Assembly: GCF_004135345.1 (NCBI RefSeq) | Contig: NZ_CP035495.1 | Location: 3,286,001 to 3,350,000 of the forward strand | Length of the DNA: 64,000 nt | Source: Xylanimonas allomyrinae | Lineage (GTDB): Bacteria > Actinomycetota > Actinomycetes > Actinomycetales > Cellulomonadaceae | Direction: 5' to 3' | Shown: positions 18,134-25,599 of the stretch, piece by piece | How the letters are laid out: each line of letters begins with the position of its first letter | How positions within the stretch are numbered: position 1 is the stretch's first letter | Notes under the pieces: generated by a model | The model's database searches: none | The model's input: only the letters and a program-made list of their open reading frames with translations | What the model was told of the DNA's origin: nothing | Program-made: the position numbers and the translations under genes

Positions 18134-19120
18134 TTGGTCACCGTTCGCGACGTCGCGCGGGAGGCGGGGGTCTCGATCTCGACGGTCTCTCGCGCACTCT
18201 CCGTGCCAGACAAGGTCGCCGTCGAGACCCGAGAACGCGTCGTCTCTGTCGCCGCCGCGCTCGGGTACCAGCCCAACCGTGCCGCAGCCGGCCTGCGCGC
18301 CGGGCGCACGGGCACCGTCGGGCTCCTGGTGCCCGACCTCGCCAACCCCTACTTCGCCGCGGTCGCCAAGGGAGTCACCGCGGGGGCCCGCGAGCACGCG
18401 CTCGGCGTGTTCGTCGTCGACTCGGAGGAGAAACCCGAGGTCGAGGCCGAGCTGTTGCGCAGCCTCGCGCACCAGACCGACGGCGTCATCCTGGCCTCGC
18501 CGCGCGCGCTGGACGCCGACCTGCCGGCGGCCGGGGGCAAGCCGCTCGTCGTCGTGAACCAGGGTGGCCCGCTTGCCGTCGGCACGGACAACGCGGGCGG
18601 GGTGGCGCTCGCGCTGGAGCACCTGCGCTCGCTCGGGCACCAGCGCATCGCGTACGTCGGCGGGCCTGCGGCGTCCTGGTCGGACGCGCAGCGCCGTGCG
18701 GCGCTGCACGCGGCGGGCGGCGCAGGCGTCGAGGTGGTCATGCTGGGGCCGTTCCCGCCCACGGTCGACGGCGGGGCCGGCGCGGCCGACGACGTCGTCG
18801 CGTCCGAGGCCACGGCCGCGATCACGTTCAACGACGTCGTCGCCGTCGGGCTGGTGCGTGCCGTGCGCGAGCGCGGGCTGCGGGTGCCCGAGGACCTGTC
18901 CGTCGTCGGGTTCGACGACACGTTCCTGGCCGCGTTGGTCACGCCCGCGCTGACCAGCGTGGGCGCGGATCTGCGCGAGGTCGGGCGGCGAGCCATCGGT
19001 CTGCTCGTGGGGCGCATCGGCGCCCGGGCGGGCTCAGGGGCCGCCACGCGGGTGCTGCTGCCCGCGACGCTCGCGGTGCGCGAGTCGACGACGACGCCAC
19101 GCACCGCACGCGAGGACTGA
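18134..19120 (+). CDS. LacI-family transcriptional regulator
   Basis: A 328-residue LacI/GalR repressor with helix-turn-helix TVRDVAREAGVSISTVSRAL at residues 3-22 and a sugar-sensing domain behind it. The start is a rare TTG at 18134, chosen because GAGAAGGAG sits nine bases upstream and because the helix-turn-helix then falls at its usual position. It lies downstream of the GH39 gene on the same strand and convergent with the GH8 gene. It is likely to control the xylan-related genes around it, but no consensus operator was found upstream of GH39 or GH8. A strong terminator follows. Confidence 0.88.
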   Translation: MVTVRDVAREAGVSISTVSRALSVPDKVAVETRERVVSVAAALGYQPNRAAAGLRAGRTGTVGLLVPDLANPYFAAVAKGVTAGAREHALGVFVVDSEEKPEVEAELLRSLAHQTDGVILASPRALDADLPAAGGKPLVVVNQGGPLAVGTDNAGGVALALEHLRSLGHQRIAYVGGPAASWSDAQRRAALHAAGGAGVEVVMLGPFPPTVDGGAGAADDVVASEATAAITFNDVVAVGLVRAVRERGLRVPEDLSVVGFDDTFLAALVTPALTSVGADLREVGRRAIGLLVGRIGARAGSGAATRVLLPATLAVRESTTTPRTARED

Positions 19121-19157
19121 CCGGCCCGCACCGGCGTCGCCCGCGCGACGCGCCGAC

Positions 19158-19201
19158 GACACGGGCCGGTGGCTGGAGACTCCCAGCCACCGGCCCGTGT
19201 C
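19158..19201. terminator. Bidirectional 19-bp hairpin terminator
   Basis: ACACGGGCCGGTGGCTGG (19159-19176) pairs perfectly with 19183-19200, plus one flanking G-C pair, around a 6-base loop. It sits between the convergent lacI and GH8 genes. Confidence 0.85.
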
Positions 19202-19218
19202 AGGGCCTACCGGTCCCT

Positions 19219-19270
19219 GTCACTCCACGGTGTCACTCCACCGCGTCACTGCACCGTGTCACTGCACCGT
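19219..19270. repeat. Four 13-bp tandem repeats over the GH8 stop codon
   Basis: Units GTCACTCCACGGT, GTCACTCCACCGC, GTCACTGCACCGT and GTCACTGCACCGT are contiguous. On the minus strand each carries TGA, and because 13 is not a multiple of three the array puts stops in all three frames. The GH8 stop (19261-19259) is the first of them. Confidence 0.8.
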
Positions 19271-22033
19271 GCGACGCCGGCGGTGCCGGACCATCAGACC
19301 TCCCGCCCCGGCGAGGGCGATCGCGAGGAGCGACGCGACCGCGAGCGCGGTTCCGTCGACTCCGGTGATCGGCAGGGTCCCCGCGGCGGGTGTGGGGGTG
19401 GCCGCGGCCGGTGCTGCGACGATCTGGAGCTCGGCCGCACCGAGGTGCACCCCGGCGGCGTCGAGGACGACGATGCTGTGCGTGCCCAGGGCGGTGTCCG
19501 CGGGGATCGTCGCCTCGATGGTGCCGTCGGCCCTGACCGCTCCGGTCACCAGGTGGCGTGGCGTCGAGTGCAGCCAGACCTGCACGGTCTCGCCGGCCCA
19601 GTCGGTGCCGACCGTGACGGGGATGGTCTGCCCGGGCGTCGCGGTCTGCGGCACCGAGACGGTCGCCGTGCGCGCGGGCGGCGTCGTGGGCTCCACCACG
19701 GGCGGCGTGACGGGCTCCTCGGCGGGGCCCCACGCCTGGAAATGACCGCTCGTGTGGAGCAGCGCCATGAAGTTGAGCAGGCCGTCGTAGTAGCGCCACC
19801 GGCCGGTCGCCGGTTCGAGGTTCCACAGCTCCTCGACGAACTTCCACGCCCGCGAGTCCGTCGCGGCGAGCGACGCGACGCCGTTGGAGGCGACGAGGCC
19901 CGGCGAGTGGTCGGTCGACAGCGCCTTGCCCACGAGGGCGTACTGGTTGGCGTAGGTGTCGAGGCCCTTGCGCTCGAAGAACGACTGGATGCGGTTGGAG
20001 AGCGCCTGCTCGGCGTCGTCCTTGGCCCACCAGGCGTTGTCGACCGACCAGTTGACCGCGGTGCGCCACGCGTCGAACCGGAAGTCGGCGTGGTTGCCGG
20101 AGTCCTTGGGCGTCCCGTCGAAGTTGGCGTAGTCGGGGGCGAGGCCCGTGCTCGGGTGCGTCGACTCCCCGAAGAACTGCCGGCTGCGGGCCGCGGCGTC
20201 GAGCCAGAACTGCCTGTCGGCGGCCGTGTTCCCGTTCCAGCCCTTCGCCCAGCGGCCCCACAGTTCGTAGAACGCGGGGACGTGGTACGACGGGTCGGAG
20301 TAGGTCGCGGCGTTGCCCTCGGGGACGAACACGACCATCTGGTGGTCACGGTCGAACATGTTGGTGATGCCGTCCACGACACCGCCGTTCATGTCCTCCT
20401 TGTGCAGCATCGTGTCGAGGATGGCGTTGGCCTGGGCCTCGTAGTCGTAGATGCCGGTGCCGTTGCCCCAGCGGTGGGCGGCGAAGAACAGCGCGGTCGC
20501 GAAGTACTCCTCGCCGTCGGACGCCGGGTTGGGGTCGGCGCACTGGCCGTCGGTCATGGCCTGCCAGCAGAAGTAGCCCTGGCGCGGGCCGGACTGGTGC
20601 TGCATGTACGTCGTCGCCCAGTTCCACAGGGCGTCGAACTCGTGCTGCTTGCCCATCTGGACGGCGATCATCATGCCGTAGCTCATGCCCTCGGAGCGCA
20701 CGTCCTCGTTGCCGGCGTCGAGGATGTAGGCGAGGTCGCCGTCGGCGTCGGTGCCCGCGGGGTAGTAGAGCCGCTTGTCGTCGTCGGTGCTGGTGAAGTA
20801 CGTCTCCCAGTAGTGGTCGAGCTTGGCCTGGACGTCGGCGTCGGTCAGCGCTGGGTCCCACTCGGTGAACAGGTTCCGGTAGACGCCGGTCTGCGCCGCG
20901 CCGGTCGTGGCCGGCACGGGGCCGGGCCGTTCGAGCGGGACGAACGGGACGTCGGGGTCCTCCGTGACGGGGGCCTCCGGCGCCGCGACCGCGATGCGGA
21001 CGTCGTCGACGAGGAAGTCGGAGGTGTTGCCGCCCGTGGCGGTGTAGCGCGTCTCGAAGTACAGGAGGGACGAGTCGGCGGCCGGCATCGTGAACTGTGC
21101 CGAGACCTGGTTCCACTCGGTGTTCGTCACGTTGGAGAACTGCCCGAGCGTGACGAACGTGGTGGACGCGCCGGTGACCCGCTGGTGGGTGAGCCACACC
21201 GAGTCGACGGGCGCGCCGTCGGGGAAGCGGACCCAGGCGGTGACCGTGTACGTCGCGCCGGGCACGAGCAGCCCGGTGGTGTCGTGGCCGATGCCCGACC
21301 CCTGGCTGGTGCGGCCGGTGACGAGCGCCGCGTGCGCGCCGCCGTGGGCGTCGGTGCCGGTCTGCTCGACGACGTGGTCACCGGCGCTGCCCATGCGGGG
21401 AACCCAGCCGTCGAGACCGTCCTCGAACCCGGAGTCGAGCACCACGGTGCCGGGCGTGGGCAGCGGCCCTGTCGGCGTGCTGGGCTGGCCTGCGGTCACC
21501 AGGACGTCGTCGACCAGGAACGAGGGCTTGACCGAGCCGTCCCAGGGGCCGGCCTCGATCGAGAACTTGGTGGTCGCGGCGGCGCCGGGCCCGGGCAGCG
21601 TGTACGTCCCGCTGATCTCGGTCCACGCGCCGGTGCCGACGTCGGCCGCTCCCACGGGCGTGTACGAGCCGTCGTCGAGGGTGAAGCGGGCCACCGATCC
21701 AGGGGCTTCGTCGACCAGCCTCACACGGGCCGACAAGGTGTACTCGACCCCGGCGGAGAAGATCCCGGCCGGGGACTGGACGGTGTCCCAGGTCTGGGCC
21801 CGCCCGCTGACCTGGAGCGCCTTGCCGGCGTCGGCATCCACGAAGGTCAGGGTCGGGCTGCCGCTCTGCGACAGGACGCCGAGCGTGCCGTCGTCGAAGG
21901 TCTCCGACAGCACGACGTCCGAGGGGGTGGGGCCGGCGCCGTCTGCGGCGGCGGCCAGGCCGGCGGGGCTGAGCCCGGCGAGGGCTGCGACGAGCCCTCC
22001 GACGCCCACGGCCTTGAGTGCGCGCGATCTCAT
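19259..22033 (-). CDS. Sortase-anchored multidomain GH8 glycoside hydrolase with two CBM4/9-like modules
   Basis: A 924-residue cell-wall enzyme. Order: signal peptide (1 to about 30); two carbohydrate-binding modules of CBM4_9 type (about 40-180 and 195-360), each ending in FLVDDV; a GH8 (alpha/alpha)6 domain (about 385-700); an Ig-like domain; and the sorting signal LPITG (887-891), hydrophobic helix and RRRR tail. The GH8 signature is SEGMSYGMM, with acid Glu448. GH8 includes xylanases, reducing-end xylose-releasing exo-oligoxylanases, cellulases and chitosanases; the neighbouring xylan genes favour a xylanase-type activity. ATG 22033 has AAGGGAG upstream. The C-terminal anchor predicts covalent attachment to peptidoglycan, so hydrolysis occurs at the cell surface next to the importers. 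Only a remnant of a sortase gene is nearby (24032-24165). Confidence 0.9.
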
Positions 22034-22218
22034 TGACTGCTCCCTTGCACCGTCATCGAGGTGAGCGCCCAGGGGGACCCGATGCGGGATTAGGGCGATC
22101 GATTGAACAATAGGTCGGTGCGGCAGGGCGCGGCAGGGACGGGGGAGTCGTCTCGTGACACGGATTCCGCGGTCAGAATGGCGGAACCGTGCGGCAAACG
22201 GCCCGTACTGACGGGGCG
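22034..22218. other. GH8 upstream region
   Basis: No gene is visible. On the minus strand this is the GH8 promoter region; CGATCGATTG near 22100-22110 is a self-complementary AT-rich patch in an otherwise GC-rich gap. I could not place -35 and -10 hexamers with confidence. Confidence 0.4.
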
Positions 22219-22391
22219 CGGTGATCGATCTGACACCGCGCGGGCGCAGTGCTGGAGACGTTCAGACTCGCGCGAGCCGGTGCCCGGCGCCGCGGTGCGC
22301 GCGCTCGATCAGCGTGGCGTACCCCGCGAGCATGCGCACGTGGCTGAAGCGGGGGCGCACGCGGGTCGGCGTGGGGCCCAGGTCGTCGCGG
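22219..22391. repeat. 173-bp direct repeat, left copy (truncated glycosyltransferase 3' end)
   Basis: This stretch matches 24342-24514 with three mismatches seen by eye over 173 bases, in direct orientation. The right copy contains the last 43 codons of the GT4 gene and 43 bases after its stop. The left copy keeps the same C-terminal codons and stop on the minus strand but has no gene body attached. It marks the left border of a 1.95-kb islet. Confidence 0.9.
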
Positions 22392-22667
22392 GCGCGAGAA
22401 CGGGCCGAGCGCGAGGCCGCCGCGTCTGAGCGCGACGCGACGCCGACCGGCGGCTACGCTCTGCCGCATCCGTACAGCGACGGGTCGCGAGAGTCTGTCA
22501 GTCGTCAGGCTGCGCGACCAGTGGCCCAGCGCAGCCGCCCCACCCCGAGCGCGCGCCGGTTGACGAAGAAGTCGACGCCGGTCGGACAGCGAAAGCAAGC
22601 GCCAGAGCGTGGGCACCGTCCCCGCGCATAGAAGGTGCGAGACGCACGCTCACGGGAGGGGAAGGAC
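22392..22667. other. Islet segment without a supported gene
   Basis: No convincing coding frame. A Cys-containing minus-strand reading overlaps the start of the next gene but has no ribosome site of its own and no recognisable domain. Confidence 0.4.
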
Positions 22668-23536
22668 ATGGTCATCGACCAGCCGAGGAGGCCACGAGGC
22701 ACGCCGACTGGCGGGCAGTGGGACCGCGGGGCGAGCGGGGGCGCTGCCGCCGAGTTGGACGGCGGAGGCGACGCGAGGGCTCGTGAGATCGACCAGTACA
22801 ACGCCCGGGCGGGCGGGTCGTTCGTCATCCCGCCGGTGCCGCGCGACGCGGAGCAGCACTACAACTACTTCTTCACCCATGCGCGAGTGCCGGACGACGT
22901 GGTGCTCACCGTCGCCTCGGCGTTCGCGAGGAGACGGGAGGCGGAGATCGACGCGGCGTACCGCGAGGCGTACGACGCCCACAACGGCGACCGGCGAACC
23001 GACCCGGCCCGGACGGCGATGGGTCGGCGCAAGGAGCACGCGCGCACCTGCCCCTACGACAGCGCCGAGGACTGCGGTCTTGCAGCCGCGCAGGCGAACG
23101 AAGACGCCTCCCCCGGAGCATCGCCCCGGCCGACTGGCGAGAGATCATCCTTGCCGAGCGGTGCGCAGAGTCGGCGAACCGACTCAGCGAGGAGGAGCAC
23201 GCTCGCTTGCTGGAGTTCCCGGTCATGACCGTTCAGGACGGCCAGTCCACCATCAGAGAGTTGGTCGAGCGGTACCGGGTGCTGGACCTCGTCGGCTACG
23301 ACGGCCTGCTTCCCCGGAACACCGAAGAGAGTGACGAGTTCATCAAGGAGGCGGTGCGCGAGACGGTCGCCGAGGCGACCGACCGGATCGTCGCCGCACT
23401 CGGAGGGGTCGTCTCCGCGCAGGAAGGCGCCGCACGAGACGCGCAGCGGTGGCGGGCCAAGGACGAACGCCGTCGCCAGTTCTACATCGACCAGCAGAAC
23501 GCCGGGCGCTTCTTCGCGAAGCCTCACCCGGACTGA
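22668..23536 (+). CDS. Hypothetical mobile-region protein with GTPTGGQW N-terminus; apparent frameshift near 23110-23114
   Basis: I do not know its function. ATG 22668 follows GGGAGGGGAAGGA and the protein begins MVIDQPRRPRGTPTGGQWDR. A Gly-Thr-Pro-x-Gly-Gly-Gln-aromatic motif at the N-terminus is common in small proteins from actinobacterial plasmids, phages and islands. The frame holds to about residue 148, then turns into Ser/Arg/Pro noise at a CCCCC run (23110-23114). One added C joins it to a coherent reading starting SIAPADWREIILAERCAESA and ending FAKPHPD at 23536. The repaired protein has about 289 residues, helical and charged, without membrane segments. The alternative of two separate genes is less likely because the second frame lacks a start before ADWREII. 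Confidence 0.6.
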
Positions 23537-23560
23537 GACACGACACAAGGAGGACCCGCC

Positions 23561-24025
23561 ATGCGCCGCGCCCTGCTCACCATTCCGCTGCTCGCCGCCG
23601 CTCTCGTCGCCGGATGCGGCGGCGCGACCGGGCCGTCCGACGACCCCATCGAGACCGTCAAGAGGCTCCACGCTGCCTACCTCGACGACGACCCCGAAGC
23701 CGCGTGCGTGCTCTTCGCGTCTCGCAGCGACGACGGCAAGGTTGTCGAACCGCTCACGGCTGCCGACGACGAACACAACTGGAACGTCTGCATCAAGAAC
23801 GTCACCCGGCAGCACAAGGTGCTGAGCGAGGAAGGGATCACGGAACTCCTCGTCAACCCGGACGAACTCACGCGCAAGACCGAGTCGTATGTCCTCCTCG
23901 GCTGTGATCCGAGGGTCGAAGGCGTCATCGACTGCCGCACCATCGGCCTCGTCAAGCATGACGGGAAGTGGTACGTCGCCTCCAACTCGTCGCGCTTCGC
24001 GTACTACGGCGACTACGGCGACTGA
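23561..24025 (+). CDS. Small lipoprotein of unknown function
   Basis: A 154-residue lipoprotein. The signal peptide MRRALLTIPLLAAALVAGCG has a lipobox VAGC with Cys at residue 19. The mature part has an early amphipathic helix (DDPIETVKRLHAAYLDDD) followed by beta-strands, three further Cys and a HDGKWYVASN strand. This layout is reminiscent of the NTF2-like or DUF4878-type lipoproteins, but I cannot assign a family. ATG 23561 has AAGGAGGA upstream. It is the last intact gene in the islet and 24 bases after the preceding hypothetical gene, so the two may be cotranscribed. Confidence 0.75.
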   Translation: MRRALLTIPLLAAALVAGCGGATGPSDDPIETVKRLHAAYLDDDPEAACVLFASRSDDGKVVEPLTAADDEHNWNVCIKNVTRQHKVLSEEGITELLVNPDELTRKTESYVLLGCDPRVEGVIDCRTIGLVKHDGKWYVASNSSRFAYYGDYGD

Positions 24026-24031
24026 GCGCCC

Positions 24032-24165
24032 TCAACCCACCTGGGGCGGAACCCCGGCCGAACGCTCGACCCAGCCGACAAGCACCGCGTGCGCGATGGC
24101 GCGACGGTCGTTGCCCCACGGGGAGAACCCGCGCGTCGTGCAGGTGTAGAGCGTCAGCAGACGAC
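24032..24165 (-). pseudogene. Sortase C-terminal remnant
   Basis: The minus strand encodes LLTLYTCTTRGFSPWGNDRR followed by AIAHAVLVG and a stop at 24032. TLYTC with a downstream Arg and a final hydrophobic strand is the catalytic Cys strand and Arg strand of a sortase. Upstream of LLTL the sequence is Arg/Pro/Ala-rich and no longer sortase-like, and no start exists, so only about 40 C-terminal residues survive. It lies just inside the right border of the islet. Assignment rests on the motif and its spacing. Confidence 0.6.
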
Positions 24166-24341
24166 GCGCATGCGGCCGCGGCAGTGCCGACGAGCGCCTC
24201 GCGCAGGGCGCCCTCTGAACGCCCGTTGGCGGCGGCATCGATGGGTTCCGGCCTCTACCACCAAGCGCGCGGCATCTGCGGCCGCGGGACGGCGCCGTCG
24301 TCGAGCGGGTCGTGTGCGCGGGTCAGTGGGCGCGGTGGCCC
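24166..24341. other. Islet segment with no gene
   Basis: No supported coding frame, RNA or repeat between the sortase remnant and the right direct repeat. Confidence 0.4.
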
Positions 24342-24514
24342 CGGTGATCGATCTGACACCGCGCGGGAGCAGTGCTGGAGACGTTCAGACTCGCGCGAGC
24401 CGGTGCCCGGCGCCGCGGTGCGCGCGCTCGATCAGCGTGGCGTACCCCGCGAGCATGCGCACGTGGCTGAAGCGGGGGCGCACGCGGGTCAGCGCGGGGC
24501 CCAGGTCGTCGCGG
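24342..24514. repeat. 173-bp direct repeat, right copy (glycosyltransferase 3' end)
   Basis: Partner of 22219-22391. It overlaps the last 43 codons and stop of the intact GT4 gene plus 43 bases beyond, and marks the right border of the islet. Confidence 0.9.
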
Positions 24515-25599
24515 CGGGCGGCGGCCTGGATCCAGGTCTCGGCGATCTCCGCGGGGTCGAACCCGGTCACGAACCCGATGCCCTCGACGATGCGCGCCGA
24601 GTCGCCGACGGGCGTGGTCACCGGGATCGCGCCGCACATGGCCCCCTCGATGAGGCACAGCGGCGCCGCCTCGCCGAACACTGACGTCAGTGCGACGACG
24701 TCGGCCGTCGCGAAGACGAGCTCCATGTCACCGCGCACGCCGAGCGCATGCACGCGGGTGAGCAGGTCGGGGCGGTCGCCGAACGCGAGGTCGAGCTCCG
24801 CGACGAGGTCCGGGTTGGCTTCCGACATCCCGGCGCCGCACATCAGGACGTGGCCGGCCGGCTCGCGCTCCAGGAAGTGCCGCGCGGAGGCCACGAACAG
24901 TCCGGGGTTCTTCATGGTGTCGAAGCGCGCGGCGAAGACGACGACGGTCGCCTCGGGCCCGATGCCCTCGGCGCCTCGGAGCGCGAGCCGCCGCGCACAC
25001 GAGACGGGGCGGAAGCGCGCGAGGTTGATGCCGTTGGGCACCACGCGCAGCAGCGACGCGGGCACGCCGGCGTCGCGGTAGGCGTCGCGGGCGGACTCGG
25101 CACAGCAGACGACGGCAGCCAGGCGGCCGGTGCGGGCGGCGACGAGCAGGTCGTCGAGCGCGGTGCCCTGGTGCTCGGGGTCCGAGCGGTGCAGGCACGC
25201 GACGACGGGCCGCTCGACGCCGTCGAGCTGGTTGACCAGGCGCAGCGGCTGCTCCTTGAGCGACATCACGACGTCGGCGCGGCGCACCGCGGCTGCCGCT
25301 CGGGCCAGCTCGACGTCGGTGAACCGGCGAGGGTCGAGGCCGTCGTCGGTCGATCGGCCCAGGGTGGTGACGGGAACGCCTGCGGCGCGCAGGAGCTGGT
25401 AGCGGTGGTCGTCGGTCATGCGCTGCACGGTGGCCTCGCGGCGCACCTGCGCGTGGATGCTCAGCGCGGCGTGGCGCTGGCGGCCGGCCGCGTGCAGCCC
25501 GGCGACCACCGTGGTGTGAAGCTGGCGGGCGCCGCCCGCGAAGAAGCCCTCGTAGAGCGAGAGCACGCGCAGGTCGCGTGGGGACGGGCTCAGGGTCAC
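24385..25599 (-). CDS. GT4-family glycosyltransferase
   Basis: A 404-residue GT-B-fold glycosyltransferase, probably cytoplasmic. The N-terminal acceptor half starts with LRVLSLYEGFFAGGARQLHT, with the Gly-Gly turn of GT4 enzymes. The hinge has VPNGIN near residue 195, followed by FAARFDTMKNPG, the usual start of the nucleotide-sugar half. The ExxxxxxxE-type motif is EAAPLCLIEGAMCG. The start is GTG 25599, preceded by GAGGAGG. Donor and acceptor cannot be told. Its last 43 codons are duplicated at 22219-22391, so its 3' end took part in a recombination or integration event. The gene copy here is intact. Confidence 0.85.
   Translation of the reverse strand: MTLSPSPRDLRVLSLYEGFFAGGARQLHTTVVAGLHAAGRQRHAALSIHAQVRREATVQRMTDDHRYQLLRAAGVPVTTLGRSTDDGLDPRRFTDVELARAAAAVRRADVVMSLKEQPLRLVNQLDGVERPVVACLHRSDPEHQGTALDDLLVAARTGRLAAVVCCAESARDAYRDAGVPASLLRVVPNGINLARFRPVSCARRLALRGAEGIGPEATVVVFAARFDTMKNPGLFVASARHFLEREPAGHVLMCGAGMSEANPDLVAELDLAFGDRPDLLTRVHALGVRGDMELVFATADVVALTSVFGEAAPLCLIEGAMCGAIPVTTPVGDSARIVEGIGFVTGFDPAEIAETWIQAAARRDDLGPALTRVRPRFSHVRMLAGYATLIERAHRGAGHRLARV

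Follow-up and report, generated by a model that had tools for sequence, protein, structure and literature searches.

The locus described here lies in a window of 64,000 nucleotides, the term used below for the whole stretch of DNA that was analysed. It comprises two convergent genes, one for a LacI-type regulator and one for a GT4 glycosyltransferase, with a block of accessory DNA between them. Within this block, a pair of near-identical direct repeats, the right one of which overlaps the 3′ end of the GT4 gene, encloses an islet that carries three predicted coding regions. The features are, from left to right:

18134 to 19120, plus strand: LacI-type regulator gene, an open reading frame that forms the left flank common to relatives
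19121 to 24384, no strand: accessory block from lacI to GT4, 5264 bases, absent or different in relatives
19259 to 22033, minus strand: GH8 glycoside hydrolase gene with carbohydrate-binding domains and a C-terminal LPXTG-like anchor, named from Pfam
22219 to 22391, minus strand: left repeat copy, an orphan GT4 3′ end (130 bases) with 43 downstream bases
22392 to 24341, no strand: islet between the repeats, about 2 kb, to which the relatives' loci that were compared show no match beyond about 50 bases
22635 to 23536, plus strand: GTPTGGQW-type hypothetical gene, broken into frames 22635-23228 and 23207-23536
23561 to 24025, plus strand: predicted lipoprotein of 154 amino acids, signal peptide and Cys recognised by eye
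24032 to 24238, minus strand: C-terminal remnant of a class E sortase (NF033747.1, below cut-off)
24342 to 24514, minus strand: right repeat copy, the 3′ end of the intact GT4 gene with 43 downstream bases
24385 to 25599, minus strand: intact GT4 glycosyltransferase gene, the right flank common to relatives

The GT4 gene exceeds the cut-offs of the Pfam models Glyco_trans_1_4 and Glyco_transf_4. The GH8 gene matches Glyco_hydro_8 (E 1.3e-23) and CBM_4_9 (E 2e-35), and the anchor models for its C-terminus stay below cut-off. The name LacI for the gene at 18134..19120 is our own reading of the sequence.

The two copies of the repeat, which are offset by 2123, are identical at 170 of 173 positions (98.3%); the three mismatches are located at 22245 (C/A, left/right), 22368 (G/A) and 22372 (T/C). 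The right copy consists of the final 130 bases of the GT4 gene followed by the 43 bases downstream of it, and the left copy is a GT4 3′ end without the rest of the gene, the truncation falling at an arbitrary codon inside GT4. The first-pass annotation had described 173-bp repeats with three mismatches, the right one being the end of an intact GT4 gene plus 43 bases and the left one an orphan 3′ end, and the open reading frames and the alignment bear this description out. Exact direct repeats in the window reach 122 bases, as against 16-20 bases in 30 first-order Markov resamplings, and the 173-base pair is the top repeat in a self-comparison of the window, in which the runner-up reaches 93 bases at 86%. 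The pair is therefore beyond chance. This 93-base direct repeat occupies 1078-1170 and 1303-1395, away from the locus.

That the pair is an assembly artefact is scarcely credible, since the copies differ at three positions, the unique sequences flanking them differ, and the assembly comprises 2 contigs at 99.99% completeness. The alignment with one relative (L083) passes position 22391 by 33 bases (71.8% over 156 bases); this extension was taken as a chance similarity in GC-rich DNA because the genome's own GT4 match ends there. As to structure, the downstream region of the right copy folded no better than shuffled sequences (z 0.44) and that of the left copy slightly better (z -1.43, with 14 of 200 shuffles equally good). 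The terminator scan reported no terminator-like site in the repeated stretch, nor did Rfam give a match there.

The GC content of the DNA at 23000-24249 is 0.66-0.69, versus 0.73-0.76 over GT4. According to the first-pass annotation the islet holds a GTPTGGQW-type hypothetical gene, a lipoprotein and a sortase remnant. All three are present, but the first is broken and the third is only a short tail. In the GTPTGGQW-type gene third-position GC switches phase at about 23080-23140, and the frame break may reflect either a pseudogene or a sequencing error; Pfam, NCBIfam and PHROG gave no match above threshold for this gene. The frame of the predicted lipoprotein has a third-position GC of 0.86. 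What is left of the sortase is a tail some 40 residues long, which aligns with positions 178-210 of the 211 of the NCBIfam model NF033747.1 (E 8e-4, 19.3 bits versus a cut-off of 160); two other places in the genome resemble this tail, at 44% and 49% identity. Several sub-threshold names came up for the islet proteins, namely PHROG 23262 and 8887 (E 0.1 and 0.27) and 8801 (E 0.09), PADLOC LmuB (E 0.015) and several Pfam models (E 0.046-0.34); no weight was given to any of them.

The first-pass annotation proposed to look for the same repeat and cargo elsewhere. The predicted lipoprotein had no match in the 10 other genomes of the genus, in viral contigs or in plasmids, and none of the 274 pattern stretches found for it in genome contigs was confirmed. 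The first frame of the GTPTGGQW-type gene gave two weak N-terminal matches in the 220 other genomes of the family (residues 9-49 and 9-54, E 4.9e-4 and 9.3e-4) and no match in phages, plasmids or viral contigs, and the second frame had no match in the 395 other genomes of the order, in viral contigs or in plasmids. DNA matches of 40-47 bases within this second frame (L002, L021) were dropped, being unsupported at the protein level. As DNA, the islet with its repeats had no match in plasmid or phage collections. A full-length relative of the cargo was not found in the collections searched, which may lack records very near the window's own genome and in which single-protein queries reach close relatives only. 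Two of the DNA scans are not exhaustive for weak matches, one having scored 40 of 509 first-look candidates and the other 5 per genome; no further copy of the repeat elsewhere in the genome was among the 40. Literature searches for the string GTPTGGQ and on elements in protein-coding genes found no paper, which does not show absence in print.

The geometry of the locus, with an intact gene on one side, an orphan 3′ end on the other and a repeat that ends 43 bases past the stop codon, is that of an integrative element. One such element, e14 in icd, restores the 3′ end of a protein-coding gene, and as at that locus an intact gene and an orphan 3′ end form the direct repeats. The islet could accordingly be the remnant of a small element that had the GT4 3′ end as its target and supplied a replacement for it, the integrase having been lost or acting in trans, and at both borders we do find the 3′ end of the would-be target gene (170/173). 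Tyrosine recombinases are also encoded elsewhere in the genome (PF00589, 14 places). None of these 14 places lies in the window, however, the nearest being about 130 kb from its edge, and PF07508 has one place in the genome, far from the window. No Pfam recombinase domain was detected in the islet frames scanned, which included 10 further stop-to-stop frames. The earlier remark that no integrase is visible is thus upheld for the window by both PF00589 and PF07508, and no integrase gene was found inside the islet. There is no tRNA, and of 73 inverted repeats none of the 25 longest has arms that frame the islet. Unlike with e14, neither an integrase nor an excision function is apparent in the islet and no second example is seen at the site; its cargo has no match in the phage and plasmid collections.

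Relatives provide a further comparison, as an element with this target would be expected to have inserted independently at the same gene end. A GT4 orthologue at E<=1e-100 is present in 50 of the 220 other genomes of the family, and all 50 loci were compared (11 fetched loci plus a further 39). A duplicated GT4 end was found in none of the 50 in the downstream DNA fetched, which extends over at least 6 kb in 44 of them and over 0.4-4.8 kb in the other six. Downstream of GT4, 22 of the 50 relatives show short matches that do not exceed 64 bases; several are inverted, and none is a copy of the GT4 end. In addition, an element that travels would probably bear an end copy diverged by more than the 1.7% observed here. 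As the window contains no integrase, no tRNA is present and none of the 50 relatives has a duplicated GT4 end in the downstream DNA fetched, the data do not support a site-specific integrative element or the scar of one, and we regard the remnant described above as improbable. We give very little credence to a variant in which the islet would be an integrase-free minimal element of about 2.1 kb that attaches at the GT4 3′ end, carries the lipoprotein and the GTPTGGQW-type protein as its cargo, and is moved in trans by a recombinase encoded elsewhere in the genome.

The same set of loci shows how the DNA between the two flanking genes varies. The lacI gene of the window is found downstream of GT4 in four of the 50 relatives (G002, G008, G010 and G027), to which it is 75-81% identical at the DNA level up to about its stop codon. 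The lacI and GT4 genes, 5264 bases apart in the window, are separated by 23 bases in G008 and by 9 in G010, both of them congeners, and by some 9.9 kb in G002 and some 5.2 kb in G027. With blastn, the block of the window had no match in the lacI-GT4 intervals of G002 and G027. Judged by eye, the interval of G002 presumably holds genes for a GntR-type regulator, for transporters and for sugar metabolism, and that of G027 what we take to be a mannonate-dehydratase-like gene and a phosphatase-like gene. In 33 of the 50 relatives, a different LacI-type gene and an oxidoreductase gene are located downstream of GT4. The same flanks are hence found with different contents in G008, G010, G002, G027 and the window; because these fixed flanks hold between 9 bases and 9.9 kb of differing content, the DNA downstream of GT4 is a gene-turnover spot.

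Relatives, compared as one genome per species, differ from the window by the whole 5.26-kb block and not by the islet alone. The entire lacI-GT4 interval is accessory, and the GH8 gene belongs to it as much as the islet does. Of the first-pass proposal that DNA has been inserted at the GT4 3′ end, the insertion is supported, on the larger scale of 5264 bases and with the GH8 gene included, and the integrative element or scar is not. In three loci from two genera (L039, L043 and L054, from G002, G013 and G234), a regulator and transporter genes are shared right after GT4, the regulator of G002 also adjoining GT4 in L043 and L054. This sharing suggests that the neighbourhood was exchanged together with GT4.

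The GH8 gene is rare: at E<=1e-100, one of the 395 other genomes of the order has it, and the GH8 locus of that one genome yields the same alignment to the window as that of Demequina oxidasica does (L093, L104). Relatives of the gene were found at 8 loci, in Streptomyces, Micromonospora, Demequina and four betaproteobacteria; none of these loci has islet DNA in common with the window. Among 14 relatives, 12 matched the GH8 protein, and in 11 of these the match is confined to query residues 3-376, which precede the GH8 catalytic domain. G019 alone matched the catalytic part, and did so elsewhere in its genome. No relative examined carries the GH8 gene of the window at the lacI-GT4 locus, so that the empty site for which the first-pass annotation proposed to look, with the GT4 3′ end continuing directly into the GH8 upstream region, was seen in none of them.

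The mismatches between the repeat copies bear on which of them is the original. Two of the three are in coding sequence and alter adjacent residues, Ala-Leu in the right copy and Thr-Pro in the left. Of the 50 GT4 orthologues in the family, 49 have Ala and one has Pro at the first position, where Thr is never found; at the second, 28 have Leu, 20 Arg, one Met and one Gly, and Pro is never found. The left copy is thus the decayed one, with both coding differences derived, because its Thr and its Pro occur in none of the 50 orthologues at those positions. The third mismatch sits past the stop codon and no polarity can be assigned to it. As for age, the GT4 gene of G002, the closest relative found, differs by about 14-15%, versus 1.7% between the copies. 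This difference in divergence argues that both copies come from one species and that the event would be younger than the split from G002, with the reservation that gene conversion could have raised the identity between the copies.

Copies that are 98.3% identical and of one species, a left copy in decay and a cargo with no match in the plasmid, phage and viral collections searched are also what would be seen if nothing had been imported at all. In that case the GT4 3′ end would have been copied leftward, by template switching or by unequal exchange within one chromosome, at a time when the islet already lay beside GT4. A simple tandem event, however, would have doubled the islet too, so that the present order requires an extra deletion or a template jump, and the spot is clearly a site of import. 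We consider such a local duplication, the alternative named by the first-pass annotation, possible but rather unlikely.

The spot is variable in relatives, the copies appear to be of one species, the left one is derived, the GT4 gene is cut at an arbitrary point and the cargo is partly broken. For these reasons we favour, with a probability of roughly 0.55, the view that ordinary gene turnover between the convergent lacI and GT4 genes left the islet as a scar, DNA of the same species having been joined via the GT4 3′ end. Two alleles of the spot from one species would have met, one with the GH8 gene and the other with the islet downstream of GT4, both carrying the 3′ end of GT4 together with the 43 bases that follow. 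On one side, the incoming DNA would have joined by homologous recombination in this common stretch; on the other, an illegitimate joint would have been made at 22391/22392. The event may have taken either of two forms. In one, a fragment with the GT4 end and the islet would have been closed into a circle by ligation of its ends and have entered by a single crossover. In the other, a linear fragment with the GH8 gene and the GT4 end would have recombined on one side only. Either form would yield an intact GT4 gene, the islet and an orphan GT4 end, and neither would need a dedicated recombinase. The presumed parental alleles, GT4 and its 43 bases followed directly by the islet or by the GH8 gene, were present in no genome examined.

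Both reactions have precedents. A passage of PMC3240628 describes circularisation by ligation followed by a single crossing-over, as well as one-sided, homology-facilitated illegitimate recombination, the latter reportedly very rare in E. coli. The proposed scar resembles the events in that passage in having one homologous side and one arbitrary joint, and in that, after a single crossover, the insert is flanked by direct repeats of the homologous stretch. Those were laboratory events in E. coli and competent bacteria, whereas the event proposed here would be deduced from one product. According to a section of PMC5635113, 27% of horizontal-transfer hotspots are without integrases and transposases. 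The spot between lacI and GT4 is like the hotspots without mobility genes in that section, with fixed flanks, variable content, no integrase at the spot and turnover among relatives. It is unlike them in that each species is represented by one genome and that lacI is downstream of GT4 in just 4 of the 50 GT4-bearing relatives. The feature would thus be an ordinary recombination scar at a variable spot and of local interest only. It would nevertheless constitute a clean and recent case in which gene swapping at a spot between convergent genes has left behind a duplicated gene end with the look of an attachment site. A direct repeat that ends in the 3′ end of a gene is, by itself, not evidence of an integrative element.

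Two smaller features were observed at the left end of the block. Just past lacI (19158-19201) lies an inverted repeat with perfect 19-base arms and a 6-base loop, likely a terminator; the terminator scan, which required a run of T, did not report it. A 13-base unit with the consensus TGTCACTCCACCG is repeated 4.2 times at the block's left border (19218-19271), in a stretch that spans the 3′ end of the GH8 gene.
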